In this document: positions 35,056-60,888 of the stretch, in pieces
Layout of the letters: every line of letters starts with the position of its first letter
Numbering within the stretch: position 1 is the stretch's first letter
Assembly: GCF_003086295.3 (NCBI RefSeq)
Contig: NC_092054.1
Span: 19,998,144 to 20,062,143, forward strand
Source of the DNA: Arachis hypogaea
Lineage: Eukaryota > Streptophyta > Magnoliopsida > Fabales > Fabaceae
DNA length: 64,000 nucleotides
Direction: 5' to 3'
The notes under the pieces: generated by a model
Told to the model about the DNA's origin: nothing
Seen by the model: only the letters and a program-made list of their open reading frames with translations
Databases searched by the model: none
Translations under genes and position numbers: made by a program

Positions 35056-35057
35056 CA

Positions 35058-36516: not shown

Positions 36517-36555
36517 TTAGCATGAGGACATGCTAATGTTTATGTGTGGAGAGGT
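36517..36555 (+). promoter_or_regulatory. AGGA hairpin and PPT of element C (3' copy)
   Basis: TTAGCATG, loop AGGA, CATGCTAA (36517-36536), then ATGTGTGGAGAGGT (36542-36555) abutting the 3' LTR. Confidence 0.8.
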
Positions 36556-38006: not shown

Positions 38007-38011
38007 GAAGG

Positions 38012-38518
38012 CCATTTCTAGCCACTGGGAGAGCTTTAATTGATGTAGAAGTGGGTGAATTAGTGCTTAGAGTGCATAATGAGCAACTGGTATTTCATGT
38101 CTTCAAAGGTATACATTCAGCAGGTGAAGAAGAACGGTGCATGCAGACTGAGCTTATTAATCCAAACCTGCAAGAACCCCCTGATGATGCACAACAGAAT
38201 TTGCAGCTCAAACCTCCCTTAGTGACCATCAATAAAATTCCTCCTGACATCAAACCTAAGTTTGGTGTCCAAAATGCATCATCCACCAAGGAGGAGGTTC
38301 CCAAAAAGAAGAAAGTACCCAGGAGATGGAGAAACAAAAAGATTTCCACTGAAGACTTCTCCCCAGGAACGAAGGTGGTATTCACTGCATGTCCAATCCT
38401 GCCTCATACAGTGAACAGGATCCTATCTCTTGAGCATATAGAGTTGATCAATGGGAGCATAGGAAAGAAGTTCACAGTGAGGGGTGAAGAGCTGAGCCCC
38501 TATTATCCTCCTCCTTAG
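38012..38518 (+). pseudogene. Continuation of F protease and short integrase-like tail
   Basis: Resumes the F frame after element C: PFLATGRALIDVE, then VLRVHNEQLVFHVF. At the point where RT should begin, the frame passes through about 60 codons of Pro/Lys-rich linker into KFTVRGEELSPYYPPP and TAG at 38516-38518. That ending resembles the integrase C-terminal [12 protein letters not shown] of G. So RT, RNase H and the integrase core are absent from F; this is a natural internal deletion, and F needs enzymes in trans. Confidence 0.75.
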
Positions 38519-38559
38519 AGGAGCTGACCGTCAAGCTAGTGACGGTAAAGAAGCGCTTG

Positions 38560-38575
38560 TCGGGAGGCAACCCGA
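38560..38575 (+). promoter_or_regulatory. Stop-proximal hairpin, element F
   Basis: TCGGG, loop AGGCAA, CCCGA, starting 41 nt after the stop. Just upstream ACCGTC (38528-38533) and GACGGT (38541-38546) can form a second 6-bp stem. Confidence 0.75.
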
Positions 38576-38765
38576 TATTTTCGTATCCTTTATTTGATTT
38601 TTGTTGGTTTGATTTTGTTATTTTTTTAGTTTTAGTTGAGTTTTACTATCATTCCTTTGTTTTATGTGTGTTTAGATCATGCAGAATTATTGAAACATAA
38701 ACAGGCTCCTAAATACAGAGTTACAGACACTAGGAGAGGAGTATATTGATTCCAAAGAGTTGACC

Positions 38766-39120
38766 CCTAACTTGAAAATTTTCAAGTTAGGCACTACATA
38801 CTACGCGCAACATACAATTTCTCTCTGGAGGGTCTGCGCCTAACTTGAGAATTTTCAAGTTAGGCACCACATACTACGCACCAAGGAGCAAATTTCTCTA
38901 GAGGGTTTGCGCCTAACTTGAGAATTTTCAAGTTAGGCGCAAGGTGTGAAGACGCAGAACAAGTTAGGCGCAAAGAAGAGCAAGTTAGGCGCAAAAATAG
39001 CTAGTACATTGGGAAAGGATGAAGTTAGGCGCCAGGGGGATTACAATACATGAAGTTAGGCGCGGGTTGTGAAGGATACATCAAGTTAGGCGCCAGTGAG
39101 ATGAAGTTAGGCGCCAAGTG
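38766..39120 (+). repeat. GCGCCTAACTTG / CAAGTTAGGCGC dyad array, element F
   Basis: Two to three near-palindromes with the central part TTGAGAATTTTCAA, followed by about eight single CAAGTTAGGCGC or GAAGTTAGGCGC words. The same word forms the palindrome in the LTRs of this element. Confidence 0.85.
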
Positions 39121-39295
39121 CATCAAACCAAAATCAATTCATTTGATTTCCAAACCAAATTTTGCATCAAACCAATAAAAAAAAATCAAATCCAATCCTT
39201 CATGATTTGTGACCCCACCTTCCATTCCTTATACATATATTAACGCCCCCATCCACTATCATATCTTTCTATTCCCATCCCCCACCAACGTAACC

Positions 39296-39298
<3 letters not shown>

Positions 39299-39340
<42 letters not shown>
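39299..39340. repeat. (TA)n microsatellite
   Basis: About 20 TA units, the insertion context of the hAT derivative that follows. Confidence 0.95.
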
Positions 39341-39341
<1 letters not shown>

Positions 39342-41439
39342 TAGGGGTGTAAGTTATCGAACCGGACTGAAAATTATCGCAGAATCGAACCGAATTTTAC
39401 AACAACCGATTGAAAAACCGAAAAAACTGGTTTTTTTGGTTTTTTTCGAACTAAACTGATCGGTTCGGTTTGGTTTTCGGTTGCCTTTGCTAAAACCGAA
39501 CCGAACCGGACCGAACCGAAGAGTGAGGGTTCAGTGAAGTGTGTTTTTACTAAGTTGCCCTTTAACTTAGGTATAAAAGCAACTCAGCCACATAACCTAG
39601 CTTTCTTCTTCTCCTTTTACGTCGCGAACCCTAAACTCAGTCTGCCAATCACCCATACTTCTCTCCCCCATTCTTCGAAGGTTCCACCTCCGACCTCCAT
39701 GCTTGAGACTTGAGAGAAGGAGAGACTGAGGGAGACAGAGAAGTTGCCAATCATCGTTCGAAGCCTCAAAGTCGTTCATTCATCTCCGTCGCAGGGTCGC
39801 CGTTGCAGGGTAGCCGTCGCAGGGTCGCCGTCGCAGGGTCGCCGTCGCAACAAAGCCAAAGCCGAGCAGCATTCCAATGTCCAACCAGTCCGTCGCCGAG
39901 CAGCAAACGATTCGCCGAGCAGCAGTCCGTCGCCGAGCAAGACTCCAGTGGCCGAGCCGCCGAGCAACCAGTCCCTCTCCTGCAAAAACCCAAAAAGCAA
40001 CAGAACAATGTCTTCTTCGGAGGTTAGATTTTGTGCTTGGTTATAATTTTTTTACAGTAATTAATGCATATATTGTCAACAAAATCCTAGTCTGCAATAT
40101 TTTTAGTGATATTGGTACTTGATTTAGTGGAATTTTTAGTGATATTTGTACTGTTATGTGAGTTTCTTATTGTATGTTGAGAAACAAAGGTTTTGGTGCA
40201 AGGTGTTGAAGTTGTTTCAACAATAATGCTTGTTATCCAATGCTTTTGATAATTTTTTATTCAAACAATTGAATAATGCATACACATCTGCAGTTCTGTT
40301 CAGCACAAACAATAGTATTAAAAGATAGAAGTTGTTTTAACTTCAATTAATTAAGCTCATCCATTAAATCATGTACTGCACTTTATTGTGTTATTGATAT
40401 TAAATGTCATTGCTATTCTTTCTTACTGTTGAGTGCATTCTTATGCGTTTAAGTCATCAATTCATTATTGTTGCTCAATAGTGGAAGATTTTAGTGTGGG
40501 CAACTTTGTAAGCAACAGTGCTGCTGTGCTGCATTATAACACAATATACATATATGAATGATCACATAGAGAAATGAAGAGAGAATCAAAATTGTCCACA
40601 AACAATGGTTGAGTTTGAAATTTTATAGTGTAATGTGCTTGTATCCATGCTTTAAAGGATTTATATACTAGCTATTGGTTTATTTTGTATATAGTTTGTC
40701 TGCACCTTTTTCATAGTAGTCTAGTTTCATCTTTGTTTATTAATGAACATGCTTACTTTGAAAAAAAAAACACTATGCATATACTCTTATAACAAATATC
40801 ATTTTGACTTCAGTATTGTTATCAACCAAATTTATTTTCTTTGTTAATATATAATTAATTGTTGATTGGCTGCTTATGAGCTGTTGTGGTTGTGTTGCTG
40901 GAAACAAAACTGTTGGTGTTGTTCATGATTTATGTTTATAATTTATAATCTATATTATGTTTATAATCTATATTGATTTTCTTGTTTTATTTTTGTAGAA
41001 ATTGCACCAACCGGAGAAGATGAGGATGAGTCTGGTGTGGATTCAGATTAAACATGGTGGCTGTTTGGTTTTTATTTGTTTTAAAGTGAATGTTTCGGTT
41101 TAAACTGTGTTTATTTTTGTTGTTTTGCTAGACATTTTTAATTGTCTTTGTTTTATGTTTAATTAAGTTGAATTTATATTGGATTTGGATGTGATATACT
41201 CTTGTTATTCTAGTTTATTGAAGGTTTTAAACTTTATTTTATGGTATTTTAAATTCTGATAATTAGGTGTAAAAAACCGAAAAAACCGACCGAACCAAAC
41301 CGCTGTTGGTTCGGATCGGTTCGGTTCGGTTGTTCAAACAGTAGCCAACCGATTGGTTGGCCTCTTTGTAGAACCGATCAGGTCGGTTCGGTTGATTTTC
41401 GGTCCAAAATCGAACAGAATCGAGCCGATTACACCCCTA
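39342..41439 (+). mobile_element. hAT deletion derivative, about 2.1 kb
   Basis: The ends are inverted: left TAGGGGTGTAAG, right TTACACCCCTA; subterminal regions are dense in GGTTCGGTT / AACCGAACC words on both sides. Inside are a cellular-looking leader with a (CGTCGCAGGGTCGC)n tandem block (about 39783-39850), a start ATGTCTTCTTCGGAG at 40008 followed by GTTAGA (5' splice site), and a terminal exon at 40999-41051 ending in an acidic tail (GEDEDESGVDSD). The transposase body is missing. The target lies in (TA)n, so the 8-bp duplication cannot be defined with confidence. Confidence 0.7.
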
Positions 41440-41459
41440 TATATAACCCCCCACCAACG

Positions 41460-41462
<3 letters not shown>

Positions 41463-41504
<42 letters not shown>
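41463..41504. repeat. (CA)n microsatellite
   Basis: About 20 CA units, followed by a (TA)n tract at 41508-41527. The flanking CCCCACCAACGTA occurs on both sides of the hAT derivative (39286-39298 and 41450-41462), a local duplication. Confidence 0.95.
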
Positions 41505-41505
<1 letters not shown>

Positions 41506-41733
41506 AATATATATATATATATATATAACTAAATTAATTAATAAATAAATGATTATATATATAAATAAAAAAATACAAAAATACAAAAATAAAACAATAC
41601 AAATTGAAAAATATATATATTTTAATTATGTTAACTTCTCTTGTCCTTCTATCATTTTATTCTTCTTTTGTAATAATATTTATTTTTATTCCTCCATACG
41701 TCTTTTTATGTCCCTCCCTATTTTTAGTTTTTC

Positions 41734-41770
41734 TTTGCTTGGGGACAAGCAAACTTTTAAGTTTACTGTT
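41734..41770 (+). promoter_or_regulatory. Internal AGGA-type hairpin, element F
   Basis: TTTGCTTG, loop GGGA, CAAGCAAA (41734-41753), then TTTTAAGTTTACTGTTG, a changed copy of the TTTAAGTTTGGTGTTG word next to the 3' LTR. Confidence 0.65.
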
Positions 41771-41805
41771 GTCTATTCGCTTGTAGATTTTTTTTGTTTA
41801 TTTTA

Positions 41806-41853
41806 ATGGCACCAAAGGGAGGCGAATCATCTTCACGGAGGAGCACAGCCTGA
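41806..41853 (+). pseudogene. 15-codon stub of the third ORF, element F
   Basis: ATG at 41806, TGA at 41851-41853, product MAPKGGESSSRRSTA. Its start MAPKG equals the start of the third ORF of H (MAPKGKQ), and G has the same stub without the ATG. The downstream ORF body is missing. Confidence 0.55.
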
Positions 41854-42891
41854 AAAATGAGACGGCCACTACGATATCTGAGGTGGTTGAGTTCCTTTCA
41901 TTCTATATTTCCTCCCATTCTTATTATGTTATATTCTTGTTTTCTGCTATTTTACTTAGTTTCTGCATGATCCTTTGTTATTTCAATTTCTAGGTTCTAG
42001 TTTAATTTGCTATTTTTTTCTGTTATTTGTTTTTAATTCCGAAAAGTGTCTCATGTATTGCTCACTGAACTTGAATTCAAAAGAAAAGGAAGAAGAAAAA
42101 GGTGTATTGCATGAGAATTAGAGTCTATAACAAAGAATAGTCTTATTTACTTAAATGTGGTGGTGTTTTTTTGTGATTCTGAATGCATGACATGAACAGT
42201 GCATATTTGAATTTGAATCAAAGGATGTTGATGTATAAGAAATAGAAATTTAGAGAACTATTATGAATTCTCTGAAGTTAGTGAAAGCTTAATCCTTGAG
42301 GCAAAAGAAACAGCAAAAGAATAATAAAAGCAAGGTCCAAGACTCTGAGCATCAATGACTAGGAAGGTCAAATATGATTAAAAGCTCAAAGAGTTGTTTC
42401 CCTAGTCATATGCCTGTGGTGTTTTTGTGTCAAGTAATCCTTGAGACAGAACACTTAGAGTCGAGACCAAGTGTATTTAGCAGAGTATGCCAAAGACTTT
42501 GAGCACCACTGTTTGGGAGTAACTGAAAGAAAAAAAAAGAACTTAAAGAGAGTCTCCCAGTTATGTGCTTGTGGTGTTTTTGTGTCAAGTGAAGCTTGAG
42601 ACAAAACATTTAAATTCACGGCTAGGATCAAGGTGCAAAGCACCGAGGAAAAGAGAATTAAAAGGAATTTGTTGTGCTCAAGGATTAAACTGAAATATAA
42701 AAGATTAGAGAATTCATAATACTATCCGGATTCTAATTTCGAAAGACATTGACATCCTTCTAATTAAAAGGAGAGTGAGATGCCAAAACTATCCAGGATC
42801 GCAGTTATAAACCCCACTTCAAGAAGAGACATGAGCTTAATTGAACTTTCACTCTCATGCAAATTCACATCTTAAGCCTATGTTGGTTTTG
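41854..42891 (+). other. 3' non-coding region of element F
   Basis: Contains two diverged tandem copies of a block with GTGCTTGTGGTGTTTTTGTG then TCAAGT and TTGAGAC (about 42405-42480 and 42560-42630). Blocks of the same type occur in H (58630-58870) and, inverted, in G (46850-47110). Confidence 0.6.
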
Positions 42892-42929
42892 GTTGCTTGA
42901 GGACAAGCAACTATTCAAGTTTGGTGTTG
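42892..42929 (+). promoter_or_regulatory. AGGA hairpin and PPT-position tract, element F (3' copy)
   Basis: GTTGCTTG, loop AGGA, CAAGCAAC (42892-42911), then TTCAAGTTTGGTGTTG abutting the LTR. The tract is less purine-rich than a classical PPT. Confidence 0.7.
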
Positions 42930-44447
42930 TGATGCGTGAGCATCTTTCCTATCTTTTCCTAGTGAATTTGCATTCAATTTGTTGAGTTTAATCAAGAATT
43001 AATTATCTTTTAACCATTATGGATGCTACTTTGAGTCGTGTGCAATTCTGTTTATTTTAGGTAGCATTCGGCTAGATTTGATGGAGTTTTCGCAGAAAAA
43101 GAGAAGAAGGCGAATGATGCTGTCAATCCTGACCTCTCTTCACTCAAACCTGAATAACTCGAGCTACAGAGGTCCAATGGACATGATTTTAGTGGCGTTG
43201 GAAATATGACTTCCAGAGCTTTCCAACGATATATAATAGTTCATACTTCTTCTCCAACCATATTGCCAAGGCTACGCCTAACTTGAGAAATCTCAAGTTA
43301 GGCACAAGACATCAACAAGCACGTACAAGGAGTAGGTTGCATTTCAAGTTAGGCGCAACCTATCCTCAAGTAAGGCACAGCGCTCAACATTCCATGCCAC
43401 TCCTCACTGCAACCTTTGAGTTAGCCGCAGCCCATTCTCAAGTTAGGCGTGGGTTATTAATGAATCACATGGTCCCCACGCCTATGCACAAACCATGCGA
43501 GATCTTCTATTTATTCTGATTAGACTTTAATTTTTATTTAAAAATAGGAAAAGATATTATTTAGTTTTAGGAAATATAATTTACATTAATTAGGATTAGA
43601 TATAAAAAGGAAAAGAATCAGTCCTTCAGGCTCTCTTCTCTTCTCCTCTACCTCATTCTGCAATTTACAGTTTTTTTTAATCCTAATTTTTCTCTTTGAA
43701 CAATGAGCAACTAAACCTCCACTATTAAGGTTAGGAGCTCTGTCTATTGTATGGATTGATACTATTATTTTTCTATTTTAATTCATGTATTGATTTCTAT
43801 TTCAAGAATTATTTTCGTTCTTTATCTTATGAATTTGGGTGGAACGGAAGTATGACCCTTGTTCTAATTGAGTTCTTGTATAACTTGGAAAAGCTCTTTA
43901 CTTGAACAATAGCTTGAAAACAATTTCTCCTAAATTTCTAATTATCTGGACTTAACAGAATACGTGACATATAATCCTCTCATATTTGGGTAATTAGGGT
44001 TTTTGTGGCATATAACTAGAATTGAACTTCACCCTCTAATTGGAATTAAGTGACCAAGGAATTGGCGGTTGCTGAATTTTAGAGGAGACTAAAAAGGTCT
44101 AAGGAATTAGGGTTTAGTCACATATAGTTTGCCATGAATTAAATCTTGCATGATTAAAATAGTTAGTAAGAAAAGTCAATCCAGAAAATAGATAACTCTG
44201 AAGCCTTAACTGTTTCTCCATATATTATTCACTACTTATTTACTGCTTGCTTTCTGATATTCTGAATTTACTGTTAATGATTTTGAACCTTCAACACCAT
44301 TTTCTATTTGTCTGACTAAGCCAATCACTTGACCATTGTTGCTTGATCCATCAATCCTCGTGGGATCGACCCTCATTCACTTGAGGTACTACTTGGTACG
44401 ACCCGGTGCACTTGCCGATTAGTTTGTGGATTGTAAATTCTACACCA
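42930..44447 (+). repeat. 3' LTR of element F (1518 bp)
   Basis: Same length as the 5' LTR with scattered substitutions. The dyad cassette is at about 43273-43450, and several CpG-containing words have lost a CG. Confidence 0.92.
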
Positions 44448-44452
44448 ACTTT

Positions 44453-45152
44453 TATGGAAAGGTTTCTGCCAATGAATGATCAACTTGTAGTGCCTCACGA
44501 AGCCATTACCGAAGCATAAGAATCTCCCACCTAGCACAACTTGTCGTCTTGCTTCATTAGATTCCCGTGTGACAATAAACAGTTCCTTGCATTTTTAATG
44601 TCAGAAGGGGTTTCAAGTCTTCCCTGCCATTACTACCGACTACAAGAGGAGGAGAGAATAAGGAGATTCTTCCTCCTCTGTGATATATCCTCACGCTATT
44701 TTTACCCAACTTTCTCATCCCATTAGGTGACCACAATTTTACTTTAACAAGGAAATTCACACCCTTGGATTAAATTTTCCCTTCACATTTCTGTAAATTA
44801 GCACTTACAACTGTGTAGAGCCAAGACAATGTATGGATGTCCAAAATCATCTTTTCAATTGGCCTATTTCCCGAGTACAGCTACAATATGAAACTTGTGT
44901 TGACAATCAAACTGTCACATCATCCTGCCTTGAATCGAAGAGGGGGAGCTGGAAGAAAACCAAATTGTATAGGTGCAAAGTAATACGACGTCACATATGG
45001 GGGCATGTTCTAGTTTAAGCAAAATTTCCTTGTGCATCGTTATTATTGGAAGGCCAAATTCATCCTTGCAATAAATGATATTGAGGTTTTTTTGTATAAA
45101 TACCGAGTCTCTGCTACCAAACCACAATGATAGATAATTAGGCTTAGCTCCA
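44453..45152. other. Host sequence, no gene seen
   Basis: Continuation of the pre-insertion sequence after element F. No ORF is supported by a recognisable motif on either strand. Ends at the left border of G; CTCCA (45148-45152) would be the G target duplication if repeated beyond the window. Confidence 0.5.
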
Positions 45153-46551: not shown

Positions 46552-46589
46552 CAACACCAAACTTAAACTGTTGCTTGTCCTCAAGCAAC
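46552..46589 (-). promoter_or_regulatory. AGGA hairpin and PPT-position tract, element G (3' copy)
   Basis: On -: GTTGCTTG, loop AGGA, CAAGCAAC (46589-46570), AGTTTAAGTTTGGTGTTG, then the LTR. Confidence 0.7.
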
Positions 46590-47794: not shown

Positions 47795-47814
47795 TTTGCT
47801 TGTCCTCAAGCAAA
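47795..47814 (-). promoter_or_regulatory. Internal AGGA hairpin, element G
   Basis: On -: TTTGCTTG, loop AGGA, CAAGCAAA, followed by CCTTTAAGTTTGGTGTTG (to 47778). Confidence 0.7.
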
Positions 47815-48458: not shown

Positions 48459-49997
48459 TGATGAGCGGATATTTTATACGCTTTTGGGGGTTAATTTCAT
48501 ATAGATTTTAGTATGTTTTAGTTGGTTTTTAGTTTATTTTCATTAGTTTCTAGGCAAAATTTATATTTCTGGACTTTACTATGAGTTTGTGTGTTTTTCT
48601 GTAATTTCAGGTATTTTCTGGCTGAAATTGAGGGAGCTGAGCAAAAATCTGATTCAGGCTGAAAAAGGACTGCTGATGCTGTTGGATTCTGACCTCCCTG
48701 CACTCAAAATGGATTTTCTGGAGCTACAGAACTCCAAATGGCGTGCTTCCAATTGAGTTGGAAAGTAGACATCTAGGGCTTTCTAGCAATATATAATAGT
48801 CCATACTTTGCTCAAGGATAGACGACGTAAATTGGCGTTCAACGCCAGTTCTCTGCCCAATTCTGGCGTCCAGCGCCAGAAACAAGTTGCAAGTTGGAGT
48901 TCAACACCAGAAAAGGATCCAAAGCTGGCGTTGAACGCCCAAAACAGCCCCAGGCACGTGAAAGCTTTAGTCTCAGCCCCAGCACACACCAAGTGGGCCC
49001 CAGAAGTGGATTTCTGCACTATCTGTTATAGTTTACTCATTTTCTGTAAACCTAGGTTACTAGTTTAGTATTTAAACAACTTTTAGAGATTTATTTTGTA
49101 TCTCATGACATTTTAGATCTGAACTTTATACTTTTTGAAGGCATGAGTCTCTAAACTCCATTGTTGGGGGTGAGGAGCTCTGCTGTGTCTCGATGAATTA
49201 ATGCAAGTATTTATGTTTTCCATTCAAACATGCGTGTTCCTATCTAAGATATCCATTCGCGCCTAAATATGGAGAAGGTGATGACCAGTGACACTCATCA
49301 CCTTCCTCAATCCATGAACGTGTGTCTGACAATCACTTTCGTTCTACATCAGATTGAATGAATATCTCTTAGATTCCCTAATCAGAATCTCCGTGGTATA
49401 AGCTAGATTGATGGCGGCATTCATGAGAATCCGGAAAGTATAAACCTTGTCTGTGGTATTCCGAGTAGGATTCTGGGATTGGATGGCTGTGACGAACTTC
49501 AAACTCGCGAGTGCTGGGCGTAGTGACAGACGCAAAAGGATAGTAAATCCTATTCCGGTACGATTGAGAACCTGCAGATGATTAGCCGTGCGGTGACAGC
49601 GCATTTGGACCCTTTTCACTGGAAGGATAGATGGTAGCCATTGACAACGGTGATCCACCTACACACAGCTTGCCATAGGAGGACGTGCGTGCGTGAATCA
49701 GAAAACAGAGGAAAGCAGAATTTCAGAAGACAAAGCATCTCCAATACTCCAACATATTCTCCATCATTGCATACAAGTATAATTTGTGTTCTGCCCTTTT
49801 ATTCCTTGCAATCAAATTTGATAAGTGAATTATTTTATTGTTTTTCTGACTAAGAGTTACAAGATAACCATAGATTGCTTCAAGCCAACAATCTCCGTGG
49901 GATCGACCCTTACTCACGTAAGGTATTACTTGGACGACCCAGTGCACTTGCTGGTTAGTTGTGCGGAATTACATTGTGAAGTAATTTTCGTGCACCA
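48459..49997 (+). repeat. 5' LTR of element H (1539 bp)
   Basis: Starts TGATGAGCGG and ends GTGCACCA. TATA-like TATATAATA at 48790-48798; dyad cassette from 48833 (TGGCGTT, C, AACGCCA) to about 48940 with CTGGCGTCCAGCGCCAG and a GGCGTTGAACGCC word. It then continues as a long R-U5 leader. Confidence 0.93.
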
Positions 49998-50003
49998 AGT
50001 TTT

Positions 50004-50020
50004 TGGCGCCGTTGCTGGGA
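50004..50020 (+). promoter_or_regulatory. Primer binding site (tRNA-Asp type), element H
   Basis: TGGCGCCGTTGCTGGGA, 6 bases after the LTR, matching the tRNA-Asp complement with changes near its 3' side. Confidence 0.85.
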
Positions 50021-50763
50021 ATTGTTTGTGTTTGAACAACTGACGGTTTATTTTGTTGCTTAGATTAGGAAAATTTTTCTTTTTGGTTTAGAGTCTCTTA
50101 TTATTGTTCTTGGTTAAAAATATCCTTCTTCAAAACAAGTGTTACATTTATTGCCCAATTGGCTAGAGTGTTGGTTTATGTTCTTGATGATTGGGCACCA
50201 GTTTTCTTAAAAATCTTTTTCAAAAATAATTTGCCCTTGATTAAATCTTGTGCCAAACTTTAAGTTTGGTGTTTTCTTGTTGATTTTTTCTTTGGTTTTC
50301 GAAAATTTTATTTTGGTTTTCTAAAAATTTTAAGTTTGGTGTTCCTTATTCATGTTCTTGTGTTCTTGCGAATCTTCAAAGTGTTCTTGAGTTTTTCCTT
50401 GTGTCTTGATCTTAAAATTTTTAAGTTTGGTGTTTCTTGGTGTTTTCCCTCCAAAAATTTTCGAAAACAAGGAGCATTAGATCTAAAAATTTTAAATCTT
50501 GTGCTATTTTATTGTTTTTCTCTCTCCTCCTTAAATTCAAAAATATCTTCCCTTTCTATTTTAAAACAAATTTTCGAAAATTATTTTTTAAAAAAAATTC
50601 ATATCTTTTTCAAAACTTCCTAACCACTTTCTCTCTCCTCAGTTTTTCGAAATTCTTCACCCATTTTTATTTATTTTATTTTAATTTTTTTTATTTCGAA
50701 AATAAAATAAATTAAATAAAAAAATATTTTTATTCTATTTTACATCATCTCCCTTTCTCCATC
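50021..50763 (+). other. Leader of element H with repeated AAGTTTGGTGTT word
   Basis: T-rich untranslated leader containing three copies of TTTAAGTTTGGTGTT (about 50260-50274, 50329-50343, 50420-50434). The same word stands beside the 3' LTR and before the third ORF. Confidence 0.65.
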
Positions 50764-52185
50764 ATGGATTTAAGCGGAAATGAACAGTCCAGGAGGACTC
50801 TGGGGTCATACGCTAACCCCTCTACTGCTTCATATGGGAGCAGTATCTGCATACCCTCCATTGGAGTCAGTAGCTTTGAGCTGAATCCTCAGCTCATCAT
50901 CATGGTGCAGCAAAATTGCCAGTATTCCGATCTTCCACAGGAAGAACCTACAGAGTTTCTGGCACAATTTTTACAAATTGCTGACACAGTACATGATAAG
51001 GAAATAGATCAGGATGTCTACAGACTATTACTGTTTCCATTTGCTGTAAAAGATCAAGCTAAGAGGTGGTTAAATAACCAACCTAAGGCCAGCATAAGGA
51101 CATGGAAACAGCTGTCAGAAAAATTCCTGAATCAATACTTTCCTCCAAAACGGATGACACAGCTAAGGCTGGACATCCAAGGCTTTAAACAAGGAGATAA
51201 GGAATCTCTTTATGATGCCTGGGAGAGATACAGAGAGATGCTACGAAAATGCCCCTCTGAAATATTTTTAGAGTGGGTTCAGTTAGACATCTTCTATTAT
51301 GGGCTTGCAGAAGGAGCTCAGATGTCTCTAGATTACTCAGCTGGTGGATCTATCCACATGAGAAAGACAATTGAAGAGGCTCAAGAGCTCATTGATACAG
51401 TTGCCAGGAATCAGCATCTGTATCTATGCAGTGACCCTTCCATGAAAGAAGAGGTTAAAGCAGTAACTGCTGAACTCAGCCCTGTAAAACAAGCTGCTGA
51501 ATTCAATCAGCAATTGGACTTTCTAACAAAGCAGTTAGCCGAATTCAAGGATAAACTACAAGAGACAAGGATGGCTAATATAAATATGGAAGAACAATTG
51601 AAGCAAACAAAGCAGCAGCTGTCAAGACAAATAACAGAAGAATGCCAAGCAGTTCAATTAAGAAGTGGGAAAACATTAAATACCCCATCTCAAGGCAGCA
51701 AAAAGTTAAGGAATGAGCAAATCACCCAAAATTCACCTGAGGATAGTAAGAGCCCAGGGAAAAGTAATTCTGGCGTTAAAACGCCAGCAATCTGGTGGAA
51801 GGCTGGCGCTGAACGCCCAGATCATGCCCAAGACTGGCATTCAACGGCAGTAACAAGCAAGGACTGGCGTTCATTGCCAGAAACAAGCAAGGATCTGGCG
51901 TTGAACGCCCAAAATGGGCAAGATCTGGCGCTAAACGCCCAAAATGGGCACAGTTCTGGCGTCCAGACGCCAGGAACAGACAAGGAGTTGGCGTCTCACA
52001 TCACTCCAGCTTCTAACTCTGGCACTCAATTGTCAGTGAGGGATCAGACACACACAAGTGCTGATGACAACCCCTCTAAAAAGGCTTCTTCAACCACTTC
52101 TGTAGGCAATAAACCTACAGCAACTAAGGTTGAGGAATATAAAGCCAAGATACCTTATCCTCAAAAACTCCGGAAAGAGGAATAG
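50764..52185 (+). CDS. gag: gag of element H
   Basis: ATG at 50764, 473 codons to TAG at 52183-52185. Capsid-type retrotransposon gag domain at about residues 55-165 (VYRLLLFPFAV, WLNNQP, KFLNQYFPPKR, SLYDAWERYREMLRKCP), then a Gln-rich probable coiled coil (about 235-300). Residues about 335-425 are Ala/Asn/Thr-rich and are encoded by the GGCGTTNAACGCC dyad repeats, giving repeated DLALNAQNG. No CCHC knuckle is seen. The frame continues past the TAG into protease (DKQFARF), so gag and pol were probably one polyprotein; F has Lys at the stop position. The TAG is therefore more likely a mutation than a programmed stop. Confidence 0.85.
   Translation: MDLSGNEQSRRTLGSYANPSTASYGSSICIPSIGVSSFELNPQLIIMVQQNCQYSDLPQEEPTEFLAQFLQIADTVHDKEIDQDVYRLLLFPFAVKDQAKRWLNNQPKASIRTWKQLSEKFLNQYFPPKRMTQLRLDIQGFKQGDKESLYDAWERYREMLRKCPSEIFLEWVQLDIFYYGLAEGAQMSLDYSAGGSIHMRKTIEEAQELIDTVARNQHLYLCSDPSMKEEVKAVTAELSPVKQAAEFNQQLDFLTKQLAEFKDKLQETRMANINMEEQLKQTKQQLSRQITEECQAVQLRSGKTLNTPSQGSKKLRNEQITQNSPEDSKSPGKSNSGVKTPAIWWKAGAERPDHAQDWHSTAVTSKDWRSLPETSKDLALNAQNGQDLALNAQNGHSSGVQTPGTDKELASHITPASNSGTQLSVRDQTHTSADDNPSKKASSTTSVGNKPTATKVEEYKAKIPYPQKLRKEE
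51766..52040 (+). repeat. Dyad repeats inside gag, element H
   Basis: About nine copies of words such as CTGGCGTTNAACGCCAG, several at about 33-bp spacing and therefore in frame. They belong to the same word family as the LTR and the post-pol array of H. Several are partly degraded. Confidence 0.85.
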
Positions 52186-55100
52186 GATAAGCAATTTGCT
52201 CGCTTTGCAGATTATCTCAGGACTCTTGAAATAAAGATTCCATTTGCAGAGGCACTTGAGCAAATACCTTCTTATGCCAAGTTCATGAAAGAGATCTTGA
52301 GTCATAAAAAGGATTGGAGAGAAACAGAAAGAGTTCTCCTCACTGAAGAATGCAGTGCAGTCATTCTAAAAAGCTTTCCTGAAAAGCTTAAAGACCCTGG
52401 GAGTTTTCTGATACCATGCATATTAGAAGGTAATTGCACCAAGACAGCTTTGTGCGATCTTGAGACTAGCATCAACCTAATACCTGCATCCACTATCAGA
52501 AAGCTTGGCTTAACTGAAGAAGTTAAACCAACCCGGATATGTCTCCAACTTGCTGATGGCTCCATTAAATACCCATCAGGCGTGATTGAAGACATGATTG
52601 TCAAAGTTGGGCCATTCGCCTTTCCCACTGACTTTGTAGTGCTGGAAATGGAGGAGCACAAGAGTGCTACTCTCATTTTAGGAAGACCCTTCCTAGCAAC
52701 TGGACGAACCCTCATTGATGTCCAACAAGGGGAAATAACCCTGAGAGTCAATGATGATGAGTTTAAGTTGAATGCTATCAAAGCCATGCAGCATCCAGAC
52801 ACATCAAAAGACTGCATGAAAGTTGATCTTATTGACTCTTTGGTAGAAGAGATCAACATGGCTGAGAGTCTCGAATCAGAATTGGAAGACATCTTTAAAG
52901 ATGTTCAGCCTGATTTGGAGAATTCAGAGGAGATGAAAGAGCCTCTGAAATTTCCTCTGGAAGAGGAAAAGCCTCCTAAACCCGAGCTCAAACCATTACC
53001 ACCATCCCTGAAATATGTATTTCTGGGAGAAGGTGACACTTTTCCAGTGATCATAAGCTCTGCTTTAAATCCACAGGAAGAGGAAGCACTTATTCAAGTG
53101 CTAAGGACACACAAGACAGCTCTTGGGTGGTCCATAGGTGACCTTAAGGGCATAAGCCCAGCTAGATGCATGCACAAAATATTATTGGAGGATAATGCTA
53201 AACCAGTGGTTCAACCACAGAGGCGGCTAAATCCAGCCATGAAGGAAGTGGTGCAGAAAGAGGTCACCAAATTACTAGAGGCTGGGATTATTTATCCTAT
53301 TTCTGATAGCCCCTGGGTGAGTCCTGTCCAAGTCGTCCCAAAAAAGGGAGGCATGACAGTGATCCATAATGAAAAAAATGAACAGGTTCCTACAAGAACA
53401 GTTACATGGTGGCGCATGTGTATTGACTATAGAAGGCTCAATACAGCCACCAGAAAGGATCATTTTCCTTTACCATTCATAGACCAGATGCTAGAAAGAC
53501 TGGCAGGTCATGATTATTACTGCTTTTTGGATGGCTACTCAGGCTATAACCAGATTGCAGTAGATCCCCAGGATCAAGAGAAAACAGCATTCACATGTCC
53601 ATCTGGAGTGTTTGCTTATAGAAGGATGCCATTTGGGCTGTGTAATGCGCCTGCAACCTTCCAGAGATGCATGCTCTCTATTTTCTCTGATATGGTGGAA
53701 AAATTTCTGGAGGTCTTCATGGATGACTTCTCAGTATATGGAGACTCATTCAGCTCCTGTCTTGATCACCTGAAACTTGTCCTGAAGAGATGCCAAGAGA
53801 CCAATCTAGTCTTAAACTGGGAAAAATGTCACTTCATGGTGACTGAAGGGGTTGTCCTTGGGCATAAAATCTCAAACAAGGGAATAGAGGTGGATCAAGC
53901 AAAAATAGAGGTAATTGAAAAATTATCACCACCTGCCAATGTTAAGGCAATCAGAAGCTTTCTGGGGCATGCGGGATTCTATAGGAGGTTTATAAAGGAT
54001 TTTTCAAAAATTGCAAAACCTCTAAGTAATCTGCTAGCTACTGACACGCCATTTGTGTTTGACACAGAGTGTCTGCAGGCGTTTGAAAGGCTGAAAGCTA
54101 AGCTGGTCACAGCACCAGTTATTTCCGCACCAGACTGGACATTACCATTTGAGCTAATGTGTGATGCCAGTGATCATGCCATTGGTGCAGTATTGGGACA
54201 GAGGCATGACAAGCTTCTGCACGTCATTTATTATGCTAGTCGCGTTTTAAATGATGCCCAGAAAAATTACACAACCACAGAAAAAGAATTACTTGCGGTG
54301 GTTTATGCCATTGACAAGTTCAGATCATACTTAGTAGGATCAAAAGTGATTGTGTATACTGACCATGCTGCTCTTAAATATCTACTCACAAAGCAGGATT
54401 CAAAACCCAGGCTCATCAGATGGGTGTTGCTTCTGCAAGAGTTTGATATAGAAATAAGAGACAGAAAAGGGACAGAGAACTAAGTGGCTGATCATCTGTC
54501 CCGGATAGAGCTAGTAGAAGGGACGTCCCTCCCCTCTCTTGAGATCTCTGAGATTTTTCCGGATGAGCATTTATTTGCCATTCAGGAAACACCATGGTTT
54601 GCCGATATTGCAAACTATAAAGCTGCAAGGTTCATACCCAAAGAGTACAACAGGCAACAAAAGAAAAAATTAATCACTGATGCAAAGTACTACTTGTGGG
54701 ATGAACCCTATCTCTTTAACAGATGTGCAGATGGAATAATCCGTAGGTGTGTTCCTAGAGAAGAAGCACAGAGGATCCTATGGCATTGCCATGGATCTCA
54801 ATATGGAGGCCATTTCGGAGGTGAGCGAACAGCCACCAAGGTCCTCCAATATGGCTTCTATTGGCCCACACTCTATAAAGATTCCTGAGAGTTTGTACGT
54901 AACTGTGACAGTTGCCAAAGAGCTGGTAATTTACCGCATGGTTACGCCATGCCTCAACAAGGAATCTTGGAGATTGAGTTGTTTGACGTATGGGGAATTG
55001 ACTTCATGGGACCTTTCCCACCATCATTCTCAAATACTTATATTTTGGTGGCAGTTGACTATGTATCAAAATGGGTTGAGGCCATTGCCACACCCACCAA

Positions 55101-55870
55101 TGATACTAAAACAGTGCTGAAGTTCCTCCAGAAATATATCTTCAGCAGGTTTGGGGTCCCTAGAGTACTAATCAGTGATGGGGCACTCACTTCTGCAACA
55201 AACAGCTTTACTCTGCCATGGTCCGGTATGGGATTCGCCACAAGGTGGCGACTCCATATCATCCATAGACTAATGGACAAGCTGAAGTCTCTAACAGAGA
55301 GCTAAAAAGAATCCTAGAACGGACTGTAAATACCCGTAGAAAGGATTGGACAAGAAGCTTGGATGATGCTCTGTGGGCATACAGAACAGCATTCAAGACT
55401 CCTATAGGGACCTCTCCATACCAACTGGTCTATGGTAAGGCATGTCACCTGCCCGTGGAACTAGAACATAAAGCCTACTGGGCAACCAGATTCCTAAACT
55501 TTGATGCCAAATTAGCTGGAGAAAAAAGATTGCTCCAGCTAAATGAGCTAGAGGAATTCAGATTCATCGCTTTCGAAAATGCCAAGCTTTATAAAGAAAA
55601 ATAAAAAAGTGGCATGATAGAAAGCTGTCATCTAGAATCTTTGAACCAGGACAAAAGGTTCTGTTGTTCAACTCTAGCCTCAGGCTATTCCCCGGGAAAC
55701 TGAAGTCCCAGTGGAGGGGACCATATGTGATTACAAGTGTATCACCATATGGTTATGTGGAGCTTCAAGATATTGATTCTGATAAGAAGTTCATTGTCAA
55801 TGGACAGAGAATCAAGCACTATCTTGAAGGCAATGTTGAGCAAGAGTGCTCAAGGCTGAAGCTAGACTAA
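52186..55870 (+). pseudogene. pol: Protease, RT, RNase H and integrase of element H, broken
   Basis: Domains in order: retropepsin-like (motif LCDLETSIN, codons near 52450-52475, where F has DLGA), RT with FMDD (53716-53727) and [13 protein letters not shown], RNase H (LMCDASDHAIGAVLGQ, later TDHAALKYL), integrase zinc finger (HCHGSQYGGHF, then CDSC) and DDE core (Asp 55000-55002, Asp 55177-55179, Glu 55284-55286), and C-terminal KFIVNGQRIKHYLEG before TAG at 55868-55870. Defects: TAA at 54481 (Gln in G), TGA at 54886 (Arg in G), a one-base loss near 55182 in the second-Asp region, and another in an A-run near 55600. The FMDD box and the tRNA-Asp primer fit the Athila-like group. Confidence 0.92.
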
Positions 55871-55911
55871 AAGCTCAGCAAGGTCCAGCTAAAGACAATA
55901 AAGAAGCGCTT

Positions 55912-55929
55912 GCTGGGAGGCAACCCAGC
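55912..55929 (+). promoter_or_regulatory. Stop-proximal hairpin, element H
   Basis: GCTGGG, loop AGGCAA, CCCAGC, starting 41 nt after the pol stop, preceded by AAGAAGCGCTT as in F and G. Two stem pairs differ from F and G, both sides changed. Confidence 0.8.
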
Positions 55930-56103
55930 CATGGGGCATCAATCCTCTAAGCATTTTGCCCTATTTTTATTTTTATTTGTTTATATAAAGTTCATTGATA
56001 ACAAGGTAGAAAATCAATTGCATAAGTTCACAGGGTTACAGAAGGAATCTGCACACAAAACAGAGAAAAAGAGCTCACTGGCAAGAAAACGCCAGTAAGA
56101 GTC

Positions 56104-56352
56104 TGTTTTGGGCGTTCAACGCCCAAAAGAAGCATCCACTGGGCGTTGAACGCCAGTGAGGATAGCCATCTGGGCGTTAAACGCCAGATTTACAGCATTC
56201 TGGGTGTTCAGAAAAACGCCCAGTAACAAAGGACTTCCTGGCGTTCAACGCCAGAAAGAAGCAGCAGCTGGGCGTTGAACGCCTAGGAGAGGCAGCATTT
56301 GGGCGTTGAACGCCCAAAACATGCAGCGTTTGGGCGTTCAAATGCCAGGATG
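56104..56352 (+). repeat. GGCGTTNAACGCC dyad array after pol, element H
   Basis: Eight copies at roughly 30-bp spacing, alternating GGCGTTCAACGCC and GGCGTTGAACGCC cores flanked by TGG or CCA. Confidence 0.9.
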
Positions 56353-56850
56353 GTGGGGAGGAGGTAAATTCATTTTTTCTTCATATTTTTCATTTTAATC
56401 TTAATTTTCATATTTCAATTCATGATTTCTTGCATAAACATGTTAAGAACCCTGATTTCTAAAATCCCTAATTTCTAAAAATCCTACCTTAAAAATATCA
56501 AATGTATCTTAATCCATAAGCACAAACCCTCTTTTTCAATTCAATTCAACTCTTTTTCAAATTTTCAAAACAAATCTATCTTTTCAACTAATATCTTTTT
56601 CAAATCTCCACATTATCTTTTTCAAAATCTAGATTATCTTTTTCAAAAATCTTTCATATCTTTTTCAATTTTAAACTACATCCTCTCTTATCATATCTTC
56701 TATCTTATCTTTTCCAAATCAATCTTTTTTTATCATATCTTTTCTAAATTTTCGAACCCACCCCTCTCCCTTTAAATATGGGTTCGGCCTCCCTCTCCTT
56801 CCATCAACAATTGCACCTAGCTCTCCTTCTATCCCTCTCCTTTCTTTTCT
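56353..56850 (+). other. Pyrimidine-rich leader of the third ORF, element H
   Basis: T/C-rich stretch with repeated ATCTTTTTCAAA words (about 56570-56670), probably untranslated. No ORF of its own. Confidence 0.5.
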
Positions 56851-56885
56851 TTTGCTTGAGGACAAGCAAACCTCTAAGTTTGGTG
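56851..56885 (+). promoter_or_regulatory. Internal AGGA hairpin, element H
   Basis: TTTGCTTG, loop AGGA, CAAGCAAA (56851-56870), then CCTCTAAGTTTGGTG. It lies 40 nt before the ATG of the third ORF. Confidence 0.7.
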
Positions 56886-56909
56886 TGTTTCTCCGTGATC
56901 ACTAAGACC

Positions 56910-58011
56910 ATGGCTCCTAAGGGAAAACAACCCACTTCAAGAGGCAAGAAAGAGAGAGTTCCAAAACCACTTTGGAATCAAGGGAAGTTCTTATCTAAAG
57001 AACATTCAGACCATTATTACAAAATAATGGGTCTAAGATCAGTGATCCCGGAAGTTAGATTCGATCTGAAAGAAGACGAATATCCGGAGATCCAGGAGCA
57101 AATTCGAATCAGGAACTGGGAGGTCCTAGCTAATCCTGAAACGAAAGTGGGAAGGAATATGGTCCAGGAGTTCTATGCTAATATGTGGCAGACAGACAAG
57201 CAAAAACTATTTGGAACTGCTTTCTATGAATATCGGACCGTGTGTCAGAGGAAAGATTGTTCATACCAACCCTGATAAGATCAGGGAGATCTTAAAGCTA
57301 CCTCAGCTGAAAGATGATCCAGACTCTTTCAACAGGAGAATGATGAGAACAGACAAGGGCCTGGATAAGATTCTAGAGGATATATGTATCCCTGGATCCA
57401 GGTGGACCACCAGCACAAAGGGTGTCCCAAATCAACTCAAAAGAGAAGATCTCAAACCAGTCACCAGAGGATGGCTGGACTTCATTGGGCATTCTCTGCT
57501 GCCCACCAGCAACCGTTTTGAAGTCACTGTTAAAAGAGCAGTGATGATCCATTGCATCATGATGGGAAAAGAAGTGGAAGTTCATCAACTGATTTCAACT
57601 GAATTCTACAAAATTGCTAATAAAAATTCTAAAGAGGCCAGGTTGGCTTACCCAAGCTTGATTTCTCTGCTCTGCAAGGACGCTGGAGTAAGGATGGGAA
57701 TAACTGAGTATATCTCAATTGAGAAACCAATCACCAAAGCATCAATGGAAAAACAACAAGCACAGGATGACCCCATCAAGAAGAAAATACAGGAATTTCT
57801 CCCAGAAATCCCTCAATCTGAATATTGGGAGTATCTTGAAACATCAGTTACCAAGATGCAAGAAGCTATGGAACAAATAATAAAGGAACAGAAGGAACAA
57901 AGTCAAATTCTTTGCTATTTGATTAAAGAACAGGAAGAGCAAGGGCGTGACTTGAGGGAATTGAAGCACCAGAAGTTATCTCTTGAAGGACCAAGCACCC
58001 CACAGATCTGA
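56910..58011 (+). pseudogene. Third ORF of element H (plant transposon-protein type), one frameshift
   Basis: ATG at 56910 in good context (ACCATGG). The basic N-terminus MAPKGKQPTSRGKK is followed by a helical domain with NMVQEFYANMW; a one-base insertion near 57240 moves the frame, which then runs to TGA at 58009-58011. The second part holds the motif VKRAVMIHCIMMGK and a C-terminal Gln/Glu-rich coiled coil (about the last 70 residues). Together about 365 codons. It corresponds to the B third ORF and, by its start, to the stubs of F and G. The position after pol is where Athila-like elements carry an extra ORF, but no signal peptide or transmembrane segment is visible. Role unknown; possibly nucleic-acid or capsid associated. 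Confidence 0.75.
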
Positions 58012-59108
58012 GGAACATCCACTTCCCAGAACAAAGGTTGTTAAATTCCAATTTCTGCTTTAACTCTGTGATAGTTGTCATTATAAGAGTTTACCTTAGG
58101 AGTCATATAATAGTAATTAGTATCTATTTTGATTTTTTTCTCCAATCAAGTTATAGTCTATTTTTCTCATCATCAGCAAACATGAATAAAATAGTAGATC
58201 TTTTGAATAAGAGGCAATAAAATTTCGAGTTTTTAATAATAAAAATTCTAATTAGTTACATGTGGTGGTAATGCTTTCTGTCTTCTGAATGAATGCTTGA
58301 ACAGTGCATATGTCTTTTGAATTTGTTGTTTAAGACTGTTAAATATGTTGGCTCTTGAAAGAATGATGAACATGAGACATGTTATTGATAATCTGAAAAA
58401 TAAAAAAAATGATTCTTGAAGCAAGAAAAAGCAGCAAAGAACAAAGCTTGCAGAAAAAAAAATATATATAATAATATAGAGAAAGAAAAAGAGAAAGCAA
58501 GCAGAAAAAGCCAATAACCCTTAAAATCAAAAGGCAAGGGTAATAAAAAGGATCCCAAGGCTTTGAGCATCAGTGGATAGGAGGGCCTAAGGGAATAAAA
58601 TCCTGGCCTAAGCGGCTAAACTAAGCTGTCCCTAACCATGTGCTTGTGGCGTGAAGGTGTCAAGTGAAAATTTGAGATTGAGCGGTTAAAGTCAAGGTCC
58701 AAAGCAAAAAAAAAGAAGAGTGTGCTTAAGAACTCTGGACACCTCTAATTGGGGACTTTAGCAAAGCTGAGTCACAATCTAAAAGGTTCACCCAATTATG
58801 TGTCTGTGGCATTTATGTATCCGGTAGTAACATTGGAAAACAAAGTGCTTAGGGCCACGGCCAAGACTCATAAAATAGTTGTGTTCAAGAATCATCATAC
58901 TGAAATAGGAGAATCAATAATACTATCTGAATTCTAAGTTCCTATAGATGCCAATCACTCTGAGCTTCAATGGATAAAGTGAGATGCCAAAACTGTTCGG
59001 AAGCAAAAAGCTACTAGTCCCGCTCATCTAATTAGAATCTGAGCTTCACTCAAAAACTCTGAGATATTATTGCTTCTCAACCTATTAGTCTTCTATTTTA
59101 TTTGTCTA
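58012..59108 (+). other. 3' non-coding region of element H
   Basis: Collinear with the F and G 3' regions. Two copies of the GTGCTTGTGGCGT..GTGTCAAGT-type block are visible near 58635-58700 and 58795-58870. No ORF. Confidence 0.6.
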
Positions 59109-59146
59109 GTTGCTTGAGGACAAGCAACAGTTTAAGTTTGGTGTTG
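59109..59146 (+). promoter_or_regulatory. AGGA hairpin and PPT-position tract, element H (3' copy)
   Basis: GTTGCTTG, loop AGGA, CAAGCAAC (59109-59128), then AGTTTAAGTTTGGTGTTG abutting the LTR. Compared with the interior copy the closing pair is G-C instead of T-A, both sides changed. Confidence 0.75.
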
Positions 59147-60685
59147 TGATGAGCGGATATTTTATACGCTTTTTGGGGTTAATTTCATATAGATTTTAGT
59201 ATGTTTTAGTTGGTTTTTAGTTTATTTTCATTAGTTTCTAGGCAAAATTCATATTTCTGGACTTTAATATGAGTTTGTGTGTTTTTCTGTAATTTCAGGT
59301 ATTTTCTGGCTGAAATTGAGGGAGCTGAGCAAAAATCTGATTCAGGCTGAAAAAGGACTACTGATGCTGTTGGATTCTGACCTCCCTGCACTCAAAATGG
59401 ATTTTCTGGAACTACAGGACTCCAAATGGCATGCTTCTAATTGCGTTGGAAAGTAGACATCCAGGGCTTTCCAGCAATATATAATAGTCCATACTTTGCT
59501 CAAGGATAAATGACGTAAACTGGCGTTCAACGCCAGTTCTCTGCCCAATTCTGGCGTCCAGCGCCAGAAACAAGTTGCAAGTTGGAGTTCAACGCCAGAA
59601 AAGGATCCAAAGCTGGCGTTGAACGCCCAAAACAGCCCCAGGCACGTGAAAGCTTTAGTCTCAGTCCCAGCACACACCAAGTGGGCCCCAGAAGTGGATT
59701 TCTGCACTATCTGTTATAGTTTACTCATTTTCTGTAAACCTAGGTTACTAGTTTAGTATTTAAACAACTTTTAGAGATTTATTTTGTATCTCATGACATT
59801 TTAGATCTGAACTTTGTACTCTTTGACGGCATGAGTCTCTAAACTCCATTGTTGGGGGTGAGGAGCTCTGCTGTGTCTCGATGAATTAATGCAAGTATTT
59901 CTGTTTTCCATTCAAACATGCGTGTTCCTATCTAAGATATCCATTCGCGCCTAAATATGGAGAAGGTGATGACCAGTGACACTCATCACCTTCCTCAATC
60001 CATGAACGTGTGTCTGACAATCACTTCCGTTCTACATCAGATTGAATGAATATCTCTTAGATTCCCTAATCAGAATCTCCGTGGTATAAGCTAGATTGAT
60101 GGCGGCATTCATGAGAATCCGGAAAGTCTAAACCTTGTCTGTGGTATTCCGAGTAGGATTCTAGGATTGGATGGCTGTGACAAACTTCAAACTCGCGAGT
60201 GCTGGGCGTAGTGACAGACGCAAAAGGATAGTAAATCCTATTCCGGTACGATTGAGAACCTGCAGATGATTAGTCGTGCGGTGACAGCGCATTTGGACCC
60301 TTTTCACTGGAAAGATGGATGGTAGCCATTAACAACGGTGATCCACCTACACACAACTTGCCATAGGAGGACGTGCATGTGTGAATCAGAAAACAGAGGA
60401 AAGCAGAATTTCAGAAGACAAAGCATCTCCAAAACTCCAACATATTCTCCATCATTGCATACAAGTATAATTTGTGTTCTGCCCTTTTATTCCTTGCAAT
60501 CAAATTTGATAAGTGAATTATTTTATTGTTTTCCTGACTAAGAGTTACAAGATGACCATAGATTTCTTCAAGCCAACAATCTCCGTGGGATCGACCCTTA
60601 CTCACGTAAGGTATTACTTGGACGACCCAGTGCACTTGCTGGTTAGTTGTGCGGAATTACATTGTGAAGTAATTTTCGTGCACCA
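59147..60685 (+). repeat. 3' LTR of element H (1539 bp)
   Basis: Same length as the 5' LTR. Here the first dyad is complete (AACTGGCGTT, C, AACGCCAGTT, 59519-59539), whereas the 5' copy has lost two pairs. Confidence 0.93.
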
Positions 60686-60690
60686 GCGTC

Positions 60691-60831
60691 GTGTGCCCCC
60701 TTTTTTTTATAGCTTGAGGTGTTCGGTTCCTGGAAGAACATAGCTGCATGATCAGAAAATTAGTAAGAACTCAATGAAAATAAAATAACTAAGAAAAACT
60801 ACTACGAAAAATAGCGAACGATACGAAATTA
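60691..60831 (-). other. Spacer of element G between dyad array and pol hairpin
   Basis: AT-rich with a homopurine tract on - (AAAAAAAAGGGGGC, about 60709-60696). No ORF. Confidence 0.5.
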
Positions 60832-60847
60832 TCGGGTTGCCTCCCGA
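60832..60847 (-). promoter_or_regulatory. Stop-proximal hairpin, element G
   Basis: On -: TCGGG, loop AGGCAA, CCCGA, starting 41 nt after the pol stop and preceded by AAGAAGCGCTTG. Confidence 0.78.
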
Positions 60848-60888
60848 CAAGCGCTTCTTTAACGTCACTAGCTTGACGGTCAGTTCTG

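Follow-up and report, generated by a model that had tools for sequence, protein, structure and literature searches.

Why do six LTR retrotransposons, some of them with unrelated ORFs, carry the same small hairpin behind their main ORF, and what might it do there? The question is raised by the window—the whole 64,000-nucleotide stretch of Arachis hypogaea DNA analyzed here—in which a preliminary description had placed one such hairpin, here termed SL2, in each of the elements A, B, C, F, G, and H. All six are found in the window sequence at the positions and on the strands claimed for them. SL2 of H (55912–55929, plus strand) is a 6-bp stem closed by the loop AGGCAA at 55918–55923. For F (38559–38576, plus strand) and G (60831–60848, minus strand), five stem pairs had been described, which hold, and a sixth, outer G–U pair had been missed. 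The A-type carries the loop AGACAA and is represented by A (9267–9284, minus strand), B (18167–18184, minus strand), and C (33488–33505, plus strand), the last with a GGTAGG/CCTACC stem. The string GGAGRCAACC occurs six times in the window as compared with 0.17 matches expected from shuffles.

The LTR pairs, the nesting, and the ORFs of these elements were derived from a self-comparison of the window and from ORF lists. H (48459–60685, plus strand) is bounded by LTRs at 48459–49997 and 59147–60685, which are 97.7% alike, and bears gag/pol frames at 50716–55870—the pol frame being broken by stops—with Pfam matches to PF03732, PF00078, and PF17917 (gag, RT, and RNase H), followed by an ORF with PF20167 at 57130–58011, which is env-like by position. 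The full set of Athila-like features, i.e., gag, RT, RNase H, env-like ORF, and an extra PPT between pol and the 3′ LTR (at 56853, a further GCTTGAGGACAAGC accompanied by a CTCTAAGTTTGG stretch), is found in H only. F (25605–44453, plus strand; LTRs 25605–27131 and 42927–44453) is split by C (29915–38009, plus strand; LTRs 29915–31387 and 36556–38009), which is nested in it; A (4882–12841, minus strand; LTRs 4882–6370 and 11394–12841) is nested in an LTR of B; and the end of H and the G hairpin lie 146 nt apart. The ORFs tested of A, B, and C are without a Pfam match at E 0.001. In A, B, C, F, and H, the PBS GGYGCCRTTGYYGGG follows the 5′ LTR at a distance of a few bases, the 5′ end of G lying outside the window; it was matched against letters that we take to be those of a tRNA-Asp PBS. 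A PBS pairing with tRNA-Asp is described for Diaspora and Calypso in the available text of PMC1142308. A long-range interaction between SL2 loop and PBS was considered and rejected, as the A-type loop GACAAC mismatches and, of the window's A-type elements, C alone fits. Also, a joint change of GRCAAC in the loop and GTTGYC in the PBS is absent: six PBS were found in 20 A-type regions, five reading GTTGCC and one GTTGCT.

A further hairpin with matched stem changes, GCTTG-AGGA-CAAGC or, in A and C, AGCATG-AGGA-CATGCT, lies closely upstream of a PPT-like TTTAAGT/CTAAGTTTGG stretch. It occurs twice in H (56853–56868, inner, and 59111–59126, before the 3′ LTR), in F at 42894–42909 and—by pattern only and with one mismatch—at the inner position 41736–41751, in G (assigned by inference; as in H, one copy before the 3′ LTR and one more internal) at 46572–46587 and 47797–47812 on the minus strand, in A at 6392–6407 on the minus strand, and in C at 36519–36534; a match at 51091 with two mismatches is probably due to chance. 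The window also holds a match to the plant snoRNA snoR71 (RF00097), its one Rfam match above the gathering score, at 28287–28390 on the minus strand, and a run of 1,000 N at 14319–15318, in or beside an LTR of B, which produces six false long ORFs.

Is SL2 a conserved RNA structure? The preliminary description had argued so from paired stem swaps between the six copies. At the level of families this stands, but the double change of C, GGTAGG/CCTACC, is found in none of the 100 A-type matches listed, at least two of which are chance matches; these mostly bear a GGTGGG/CCCACC stem with scattered single mismatches. Hence, the swap in C may be private to one copy, and the window by itself provides three family-level stem types (A/B/C, F/G, and H). 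The stronger covariation evidence is that of further families in the same genome.

This genome was scanned over 2,557,474,382 bases in 440 contigs, and all comparative evidence stems from it. The core motif GGGAGRCAACCC has 36,530 + 36,316 matches (72,846) as compared with 137 + 143 (280) for the reversed pattern, and the stem-free pattern AAGCGCTT-N6-AGGCAA-N6-H has 15,441 + 14,941 (30,382) as compared with 2 for the reversed control. The A-type pattern AAGTGCT-N7-AGACAA yields 7,757 + 7,657 matches against 29, and a pattern of SL1 loop and linker—two upstream parts described below—with seven free bases yields 41,683 against 0. Samples drawn with such exact linker or loop patterns are biased toward young copies. 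A viral contig collection gave no match by pattern scan or by pol protein search, and a plasmid collection gave no hairpin match; the single match in a genome contig collection, on a GC-rich bacterial contig, is taken as chance.

Among the first 100 stem-free matches listed, all six pairs of SL2 are intact in 84, and the outer three pairs are formed in 289 of 300 cells, where 2,000 shuffles average 248.5 and never exceed 261. Counting each of the 28 distinct stems once, 74 of 84 outer cells are paired (mean 62.0, maximum 70 in 5,000 shuffles), and 14 stems are fully paired against a shuffle mean of 8.3, with the best shuffles reaching 14. A second sample, selected by nothing but SL1 loop and linker, comprises 40 consecutive copies out of 100 listed matches and overlaps the first sample in many places; here, all six pairs are intact in 34 copies, and 116 of 120 outer cells are paired (shuffle mean 104.2, maximum 111). 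The loop, which had been described as almost fixed, reads AGGCAA in each of these 40 copies even though they were chosen by SL1 loop and linker alone.

Between families, the outer pairs switch jointly among G–C, G–U, A–U, C–G, and U–A. In a covariation set of 17 sequences, hand-chosen across families, pairing in SL2 reaches 99%, and four of its six pairs have changed on both sides: pair 2 is U–A in eight, C–G in four, G–C in four, and A–U in one sequence, and G–C, G–U, A–U, and C–G all occur at pair 1. The covariation score over SL1 and SL2 is 0.361 as compared with 0.129 after shuffling (reached by 0 of 500 shuffles) and with no more than 0.100 when the partners are slid. Weaker measures separate less well, since the six doubly changed pairs are reached by 16 and the 12 further pair types by 131 of 500 shuffles. 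In a hand alignment of 12 representatives—excluding L006, where SL1 is lost—a home-made simple score places the three outer SL2 pairs at ranks 1, 3, and 4 of 630 column pairs and one SL1 pair at rank 7, tied with rank 6. RNAalifold, unaided, calls exactly SL2, with SL1 absent. For the 72-nt stretch, folding energies are unremarkable, with z between −0.28 and −1.77 in the seven of 17 sequences that were folded. Shared ancestry is only partly corrected for in these covariation tests. Taken together, the counts of paired cells and the covariation score, which exceed every shuffle, support the conserved RNA structure proposed earlier, and that the hairpin is real and under selection seems hardly in doubt from the compared copies.

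Rank 2 of the same alignment is held by the fourth position of the linker together with the third of the SL2 loop (e.g., 55907 and 55920), which are C with G in the AAGCGCTT/AGGCAA families and T (U) with A in the A-type. This column pair possibly marks a tertiary pair, or else chance or one shared change, as it rests on one split.

Two readings can be weighed directly on these data. The first is a dyad at the level of DNA, such as a protein site or a cruciform: the copies are DNA, after all, and the dyad is perfect in many of them. However, the outer pair among the 100 listed matches is G–U in 46, A–U in 24, G–C in 22, and A–C in a single one, a spectrum that is as expected of plus-strand RNA. 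A G–T combination preserves the pair in plus-strand RNA alone and disrupts a dyad in DNA, which argues against this reading—even if, since the families share ancestry, few independent events stand behind the argument—and we consider it very unlikely. The second is a sequence inherited from a common ancestor and retained by descent with no present function. The A-type copies would suit it, as their stem is otherwise fixed and decays mainly through single unmatched changes. A comparison of flanking 8-mers, however, sorts 77 loci into 11 clusters (two of them, L042 and L060, being chance matches, and another, L035, having a core of the H type); between clusters, the flanks have few 8-mers in common, yet loop and linker stay constant and stem letters change in matched pairs. 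Descent without function is hence already disfavored and has very little left to recommend it.

SL2 is half of a larger arrangement: upstream lie a second, weaker hairpin (SL1) and a linker of fixed sequence, downstream a U-rich tract; SL1, linker, stop spacing, and U-rich tract had all been overlooked before. The comparison of copies shows a plus-strand RNA element of ~50 nt—SL1, fixed linker, and SL2 with its near-invariant loop, followed by the U-rich tract—that is kept between families of Athila-like LTR retrotransposons, whether or not they have pol-type ORFs. In most AGGCAA families, SL1 takes the form YGUCA-AGCUAN-UGACR, as in F (38529–38544, plus strand; CGTCA/TGACG with loop AGCTAG); SL1 of G is at 60863–60878 on the minus strand. 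The H type retains GUC/GAC only, and H itself (55882–55897, plus strand) has a weak SL1 of 3 bp, GTC/GAC, with the inner and outer pairs of GGTCC/AGACA mismatched. In the A-type, the form is GUCC-AACUUAA-GGAC and once GUCU...AGAC; SL1 of A lies at 9301–9317 on the minus strand (GTCC/GGAC, loop AACTTAA), that of B at 18201–18217 on the minus strand (GTCC/GGAA, one pair broken), and that of C at 33455–33471 on the plus strand. Across the 17 sequences, SL1 is 74% paired, partly because four A-type rows are one base out of register. The conserved linker of H (55898–55911, plus strand) leads from SL1 to SL2 and ends with AAGCGCTT.

The U-rich tract follows SL2 directly, in H at 55930–55992 on the plus strand with limits set by eye: across 41 loci, U makes up a fraction of 0.19 of the 50 nt that end with SL2 and of 0.55 of the next 50 nt. 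With a set of 4-mers that we take to be PTB-like, the tract holds 56 occurrences as compared with 49.7 expected from composition (11 cluster representatives, including the two chance matches). At its end, TGATCATG is met again in otherwise different families (e.g., in G, L007, L016, and L018), and from ~150 nt 3′ of SL2 palindromes like GGCGTTNAACGCC are seen at 56105–56190 in H and in the same region of L007, L008, and L016. In 17 of 110 matches fetched, duplicates included, RTATCCTT stands directly 3′ of SL2, 17 to 18 nt past the start of the loop (e.g., in L002, L003, L005, and L006), and F has it as well. It resembles what we take to be the U12-type 5′ splice site; by eye, no consistent U12 branch site is seen near it.

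Such a tract might suggest that SL1 and SL2 regulate a 3′ splice site, i.e., that they stand upstream of a U-rich stretch with a terminal acceptor-like YAG, which would be used for a spliced subgenomic RNA with the env-like ORF. In many loci, the U-rich tract has by eye an end that resembles an acceptor, TTTTTTGTAG/G and TTCTTACAG being examples, and according to the available text of PMC2829016 splice acceptors have been predicted for BAGY2 and Athila, which counts in favor of this reading. On the other side, the downstream ORFs of A and B (one each) have no Pfam match, and the PF20167 ORF of H does not begin until 1.2 kb further downstream. The best 5′ donor score, obtained with a simple consensus, does not reach the average best score of shuffles in any of the five leaders or the five 5′ LTRs, G being excluded. 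As leaders and LTRs gave no donor, regulated splicing is regarded as improbable.

The position of the element relative to the upstream stop codon was measured as well. In H, the TAA ending the pol frame (55868–55870, plus strand; further stops lie inside pol) is 50 nt before the SL2 loop. When the end of the longest open frame is sought within 20 to 110 nt before the loop, the distance from stop to loop is 49 to 65 nt in 36 of 44 rows, three of which are duplicate places; the eight outlying rows have 25, 30, 44, 47, 47, 72, 76, and 76 nt, where the 30 nt of C belongs to another frame than the stop of its KHKPP end. For the A-type, 23 of 29 rows fall within 52 to 58 nt, the rest having 29, 30, 30, 80, 85, and 97 nt. 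The gap from stop to SL1 mostly measures 10 to 26 nt. From the stop to the 3′ LTR, a further 3.0 to 4.4 kb follow in A, C, F, and H, so that compactness hardly explains the narrow spacing. Readthrough of the stop was rejected as a general role because in F and G another stop follows shortly. That the element serves to translate a downstream ORF, one of the roles suggested earlier, is unlikely as well: the tested ORFs of A and B (one each) lack a Pfam match, and C has no stop-to-stop ORF of at least 120 aa there on its own strand.

The ORFs that end at this position differ. By BLASTP, performed without the tail of L065, their ends fall into three groups with no mutual similarity at E 0.01: pol-type ends (G, H, F, L002, L003, L005, L022, and L079), ends with SNSKFGV repeats (L007, L016, and L018), and KHKPP ends (A and B). 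The earlier claim that the hairpin follows the main ORF in elements with unrelated ORFs is thereby borne out, and a hairpin past the stop in three such groups has to be part of the element RNA and not of a protein. L079 combines an A-type hairpin (AGACAA, A-type linker, and GGTGGG stem) with a pol-type end that is 47% identical to that of G over 94 residues. Judged by these features, L079—and L063—might be an autonomous partner of the A/B/C family.

What, then, would an RNA element gain from standing just past a stop codon? Our preferred reading, to which we assign a probability of roughly 0.35, is a putative role in protection from decay, with the SL1/SL2 element acting as a stop-proximal RNA-fate signal. 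It would begin at or just past the edge of the terminating ribosome and could, hence, remain folded on RNA that is being translated. Together with the U-rich tract, it would recruit a sequence-specific factor for which the fixed letters of loop and linker are the mark. This factor would shield the full-length RNA, with its 3.0 to 4.4 kb from stop to LTR, from nonsense-mediated decay in the manner in which the RNA stability element (RSE) of Rous sarcoma virus (RSV) acts on gag mRNA. Non-autonomous elements would keep the hairpin because their mRNA has an equally long 3′UTR.

There are precedents for such signals. In the text available from PMC5580461, the RSE of RSV is placed immediately 3′ of the gag stop, has a minimal length of 155 nt, and binds PTBP1; binding of the RSE to polypyrimidine tract binding protein is also stated in the available text of PMC4764554. 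The element described here resembles it in its place directly past a stop on a full-length retroelement RNA with a multi-kb 3′UTR, a position from which 8 of 44 and 6 of 29 rows deviate by falling outside the main range. The RSE differs in being 155 to 400 nt long, and no fixed-loop hairpin is described for it in the accessible parts of PMC5580461, so that the likeness is one of position and no homology is claimed. For turnip crinkle virus (TCV), the available text of PMC6277124 describes a 51-nt stretch after the coat-protein stop that protects the RNA from nonsense-mediated decay in Nicotiana benthamiana, and sets the first 15 bases past the stop aside as the footprint of the terminating ribosome. 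That region likewise lies directly past the stop and works in plants. It is unstructured, however, whereas the present element is structured over its first ~50 nt, with an open U-rich part behind them. As far as these sources go, RSV and TCV demonstrate that stop-proximal stability signals exist.

Several points count against protection from decay. The PTB-like 4-mers are barely above composition, RNAalifold found SL2 only, and the folding energies are unexceptional. From what is available on them, neither the RSV nor the TCV element is made up of small fixed hairpins, the TCV one being unstructured. Also, the AGACAA variant is common to the pol-less A/B/C elements and to pol-type L079, which would fit a partner-specific signal or plain descent. 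From the constancy of loop and linker letters, we infer a binding partner, either a host protein or Gag, and the fixed loop would suit recognition by Gag equally well.

This leads to a packaging (perhaps dimerization) signal, a tentative possibility in its own right: Gag of autonomous elements would bind the fixed loops and the linker and thereby select full-length RNA of autonomous and non-autonomous elements alike. Being past the stop, the signal would not be unfolded by ribosomes. Packaging and dimerization signals of retroviruses and Ty elements consist of tandem short hairpins with fixed loops and are shared with non-autonomous elements, and dimer-forming loops are often palindromic. In line with this, the hairpin is common to elements with pol-type and unrelated ORF ends, the A-type variant goes with a possible partner in L079, the loop is constant in 40 of 40 copies, and palindromes are seen both in the loop of SL1 (AGCT) and in the linker (AAGCGCTT). 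Sharing of the variant may, however, be plain descent; the A-type linker is no exact palindrome, and some copies carry AAACGCTT (L005 and L124). Unlike the known packaging signals, which are mostly in the 5′ leader, the hairpin element sits after the main ORF. Packaging by itself requires no narrow stop distance, and binding by Gag is putative here. Overall, protection from decay is only a little ahead of packaging, the two being nearly level, and both are well ahead of splicing.

A dedicated plant retrotransposon module of two fixed-loop hairpins, placed where the terminating ribosome ends, might also couple the termination of translation to the fate of the RNA, in that it marks the element RNA, blocks nonsense-mediated decay, and hands the RNA to Gag. 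Non-autonomous elements with new ORFs would then have had to end beside the hairpins in order to be propagated, and would carry the hairpin variant of their pol-bearing partner. This wider proposal is rather unlikely as it stands.

Has such an element been described before? No Rfam family matches the hairpin, searching the window at the gathering score and 55840–56050 at E up to 1, where one sub-threshold match (E 0.42) lies on the opposite strand. A literature search by topic, covering titles and abstract starts of open-licence papers—a scope outside which the founding Athila4/Calypso and BAGY-2 papers fall—returned no such element, and a full-text search by motif letters matched, by title, no plant retrotransposon paper. 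The available portions of PMC1142308, PMC2829016, PMC2410132, PMC6317226, PMC10578108, and PMC11963269 contain no passage on such a hairpin. Comparable signals are those of the Sireviruses, for which the available text of PMC2829016 reports short conserved non-coding motifs, an inverted repeat at the PPT among them; it also describes one extra PPT in the linkers of Athila4 and Calypso. Unlike the hosts of SL1 and SL2, Sireviruses are Copia elements with other sequences, and stop-proximal hairpins are not mentioned in that portion of the paper.

The element is a cis-acting RNA element of retroelements; unusual are its place and its sharing by elements with unrelated ORFs. To our knowledge, little is known about how the RNA of plant LTR retrotransposons—above all of the non-autonomous ones—is kept, translated, and packaged. 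A short, nearly fixed RNA element that covaries and exists in tens of thousands of copies offers a tangible entry point to this RNA biology, and the hairpin variant may act as a sequence tag that pairs non-autonomous families with their partners.
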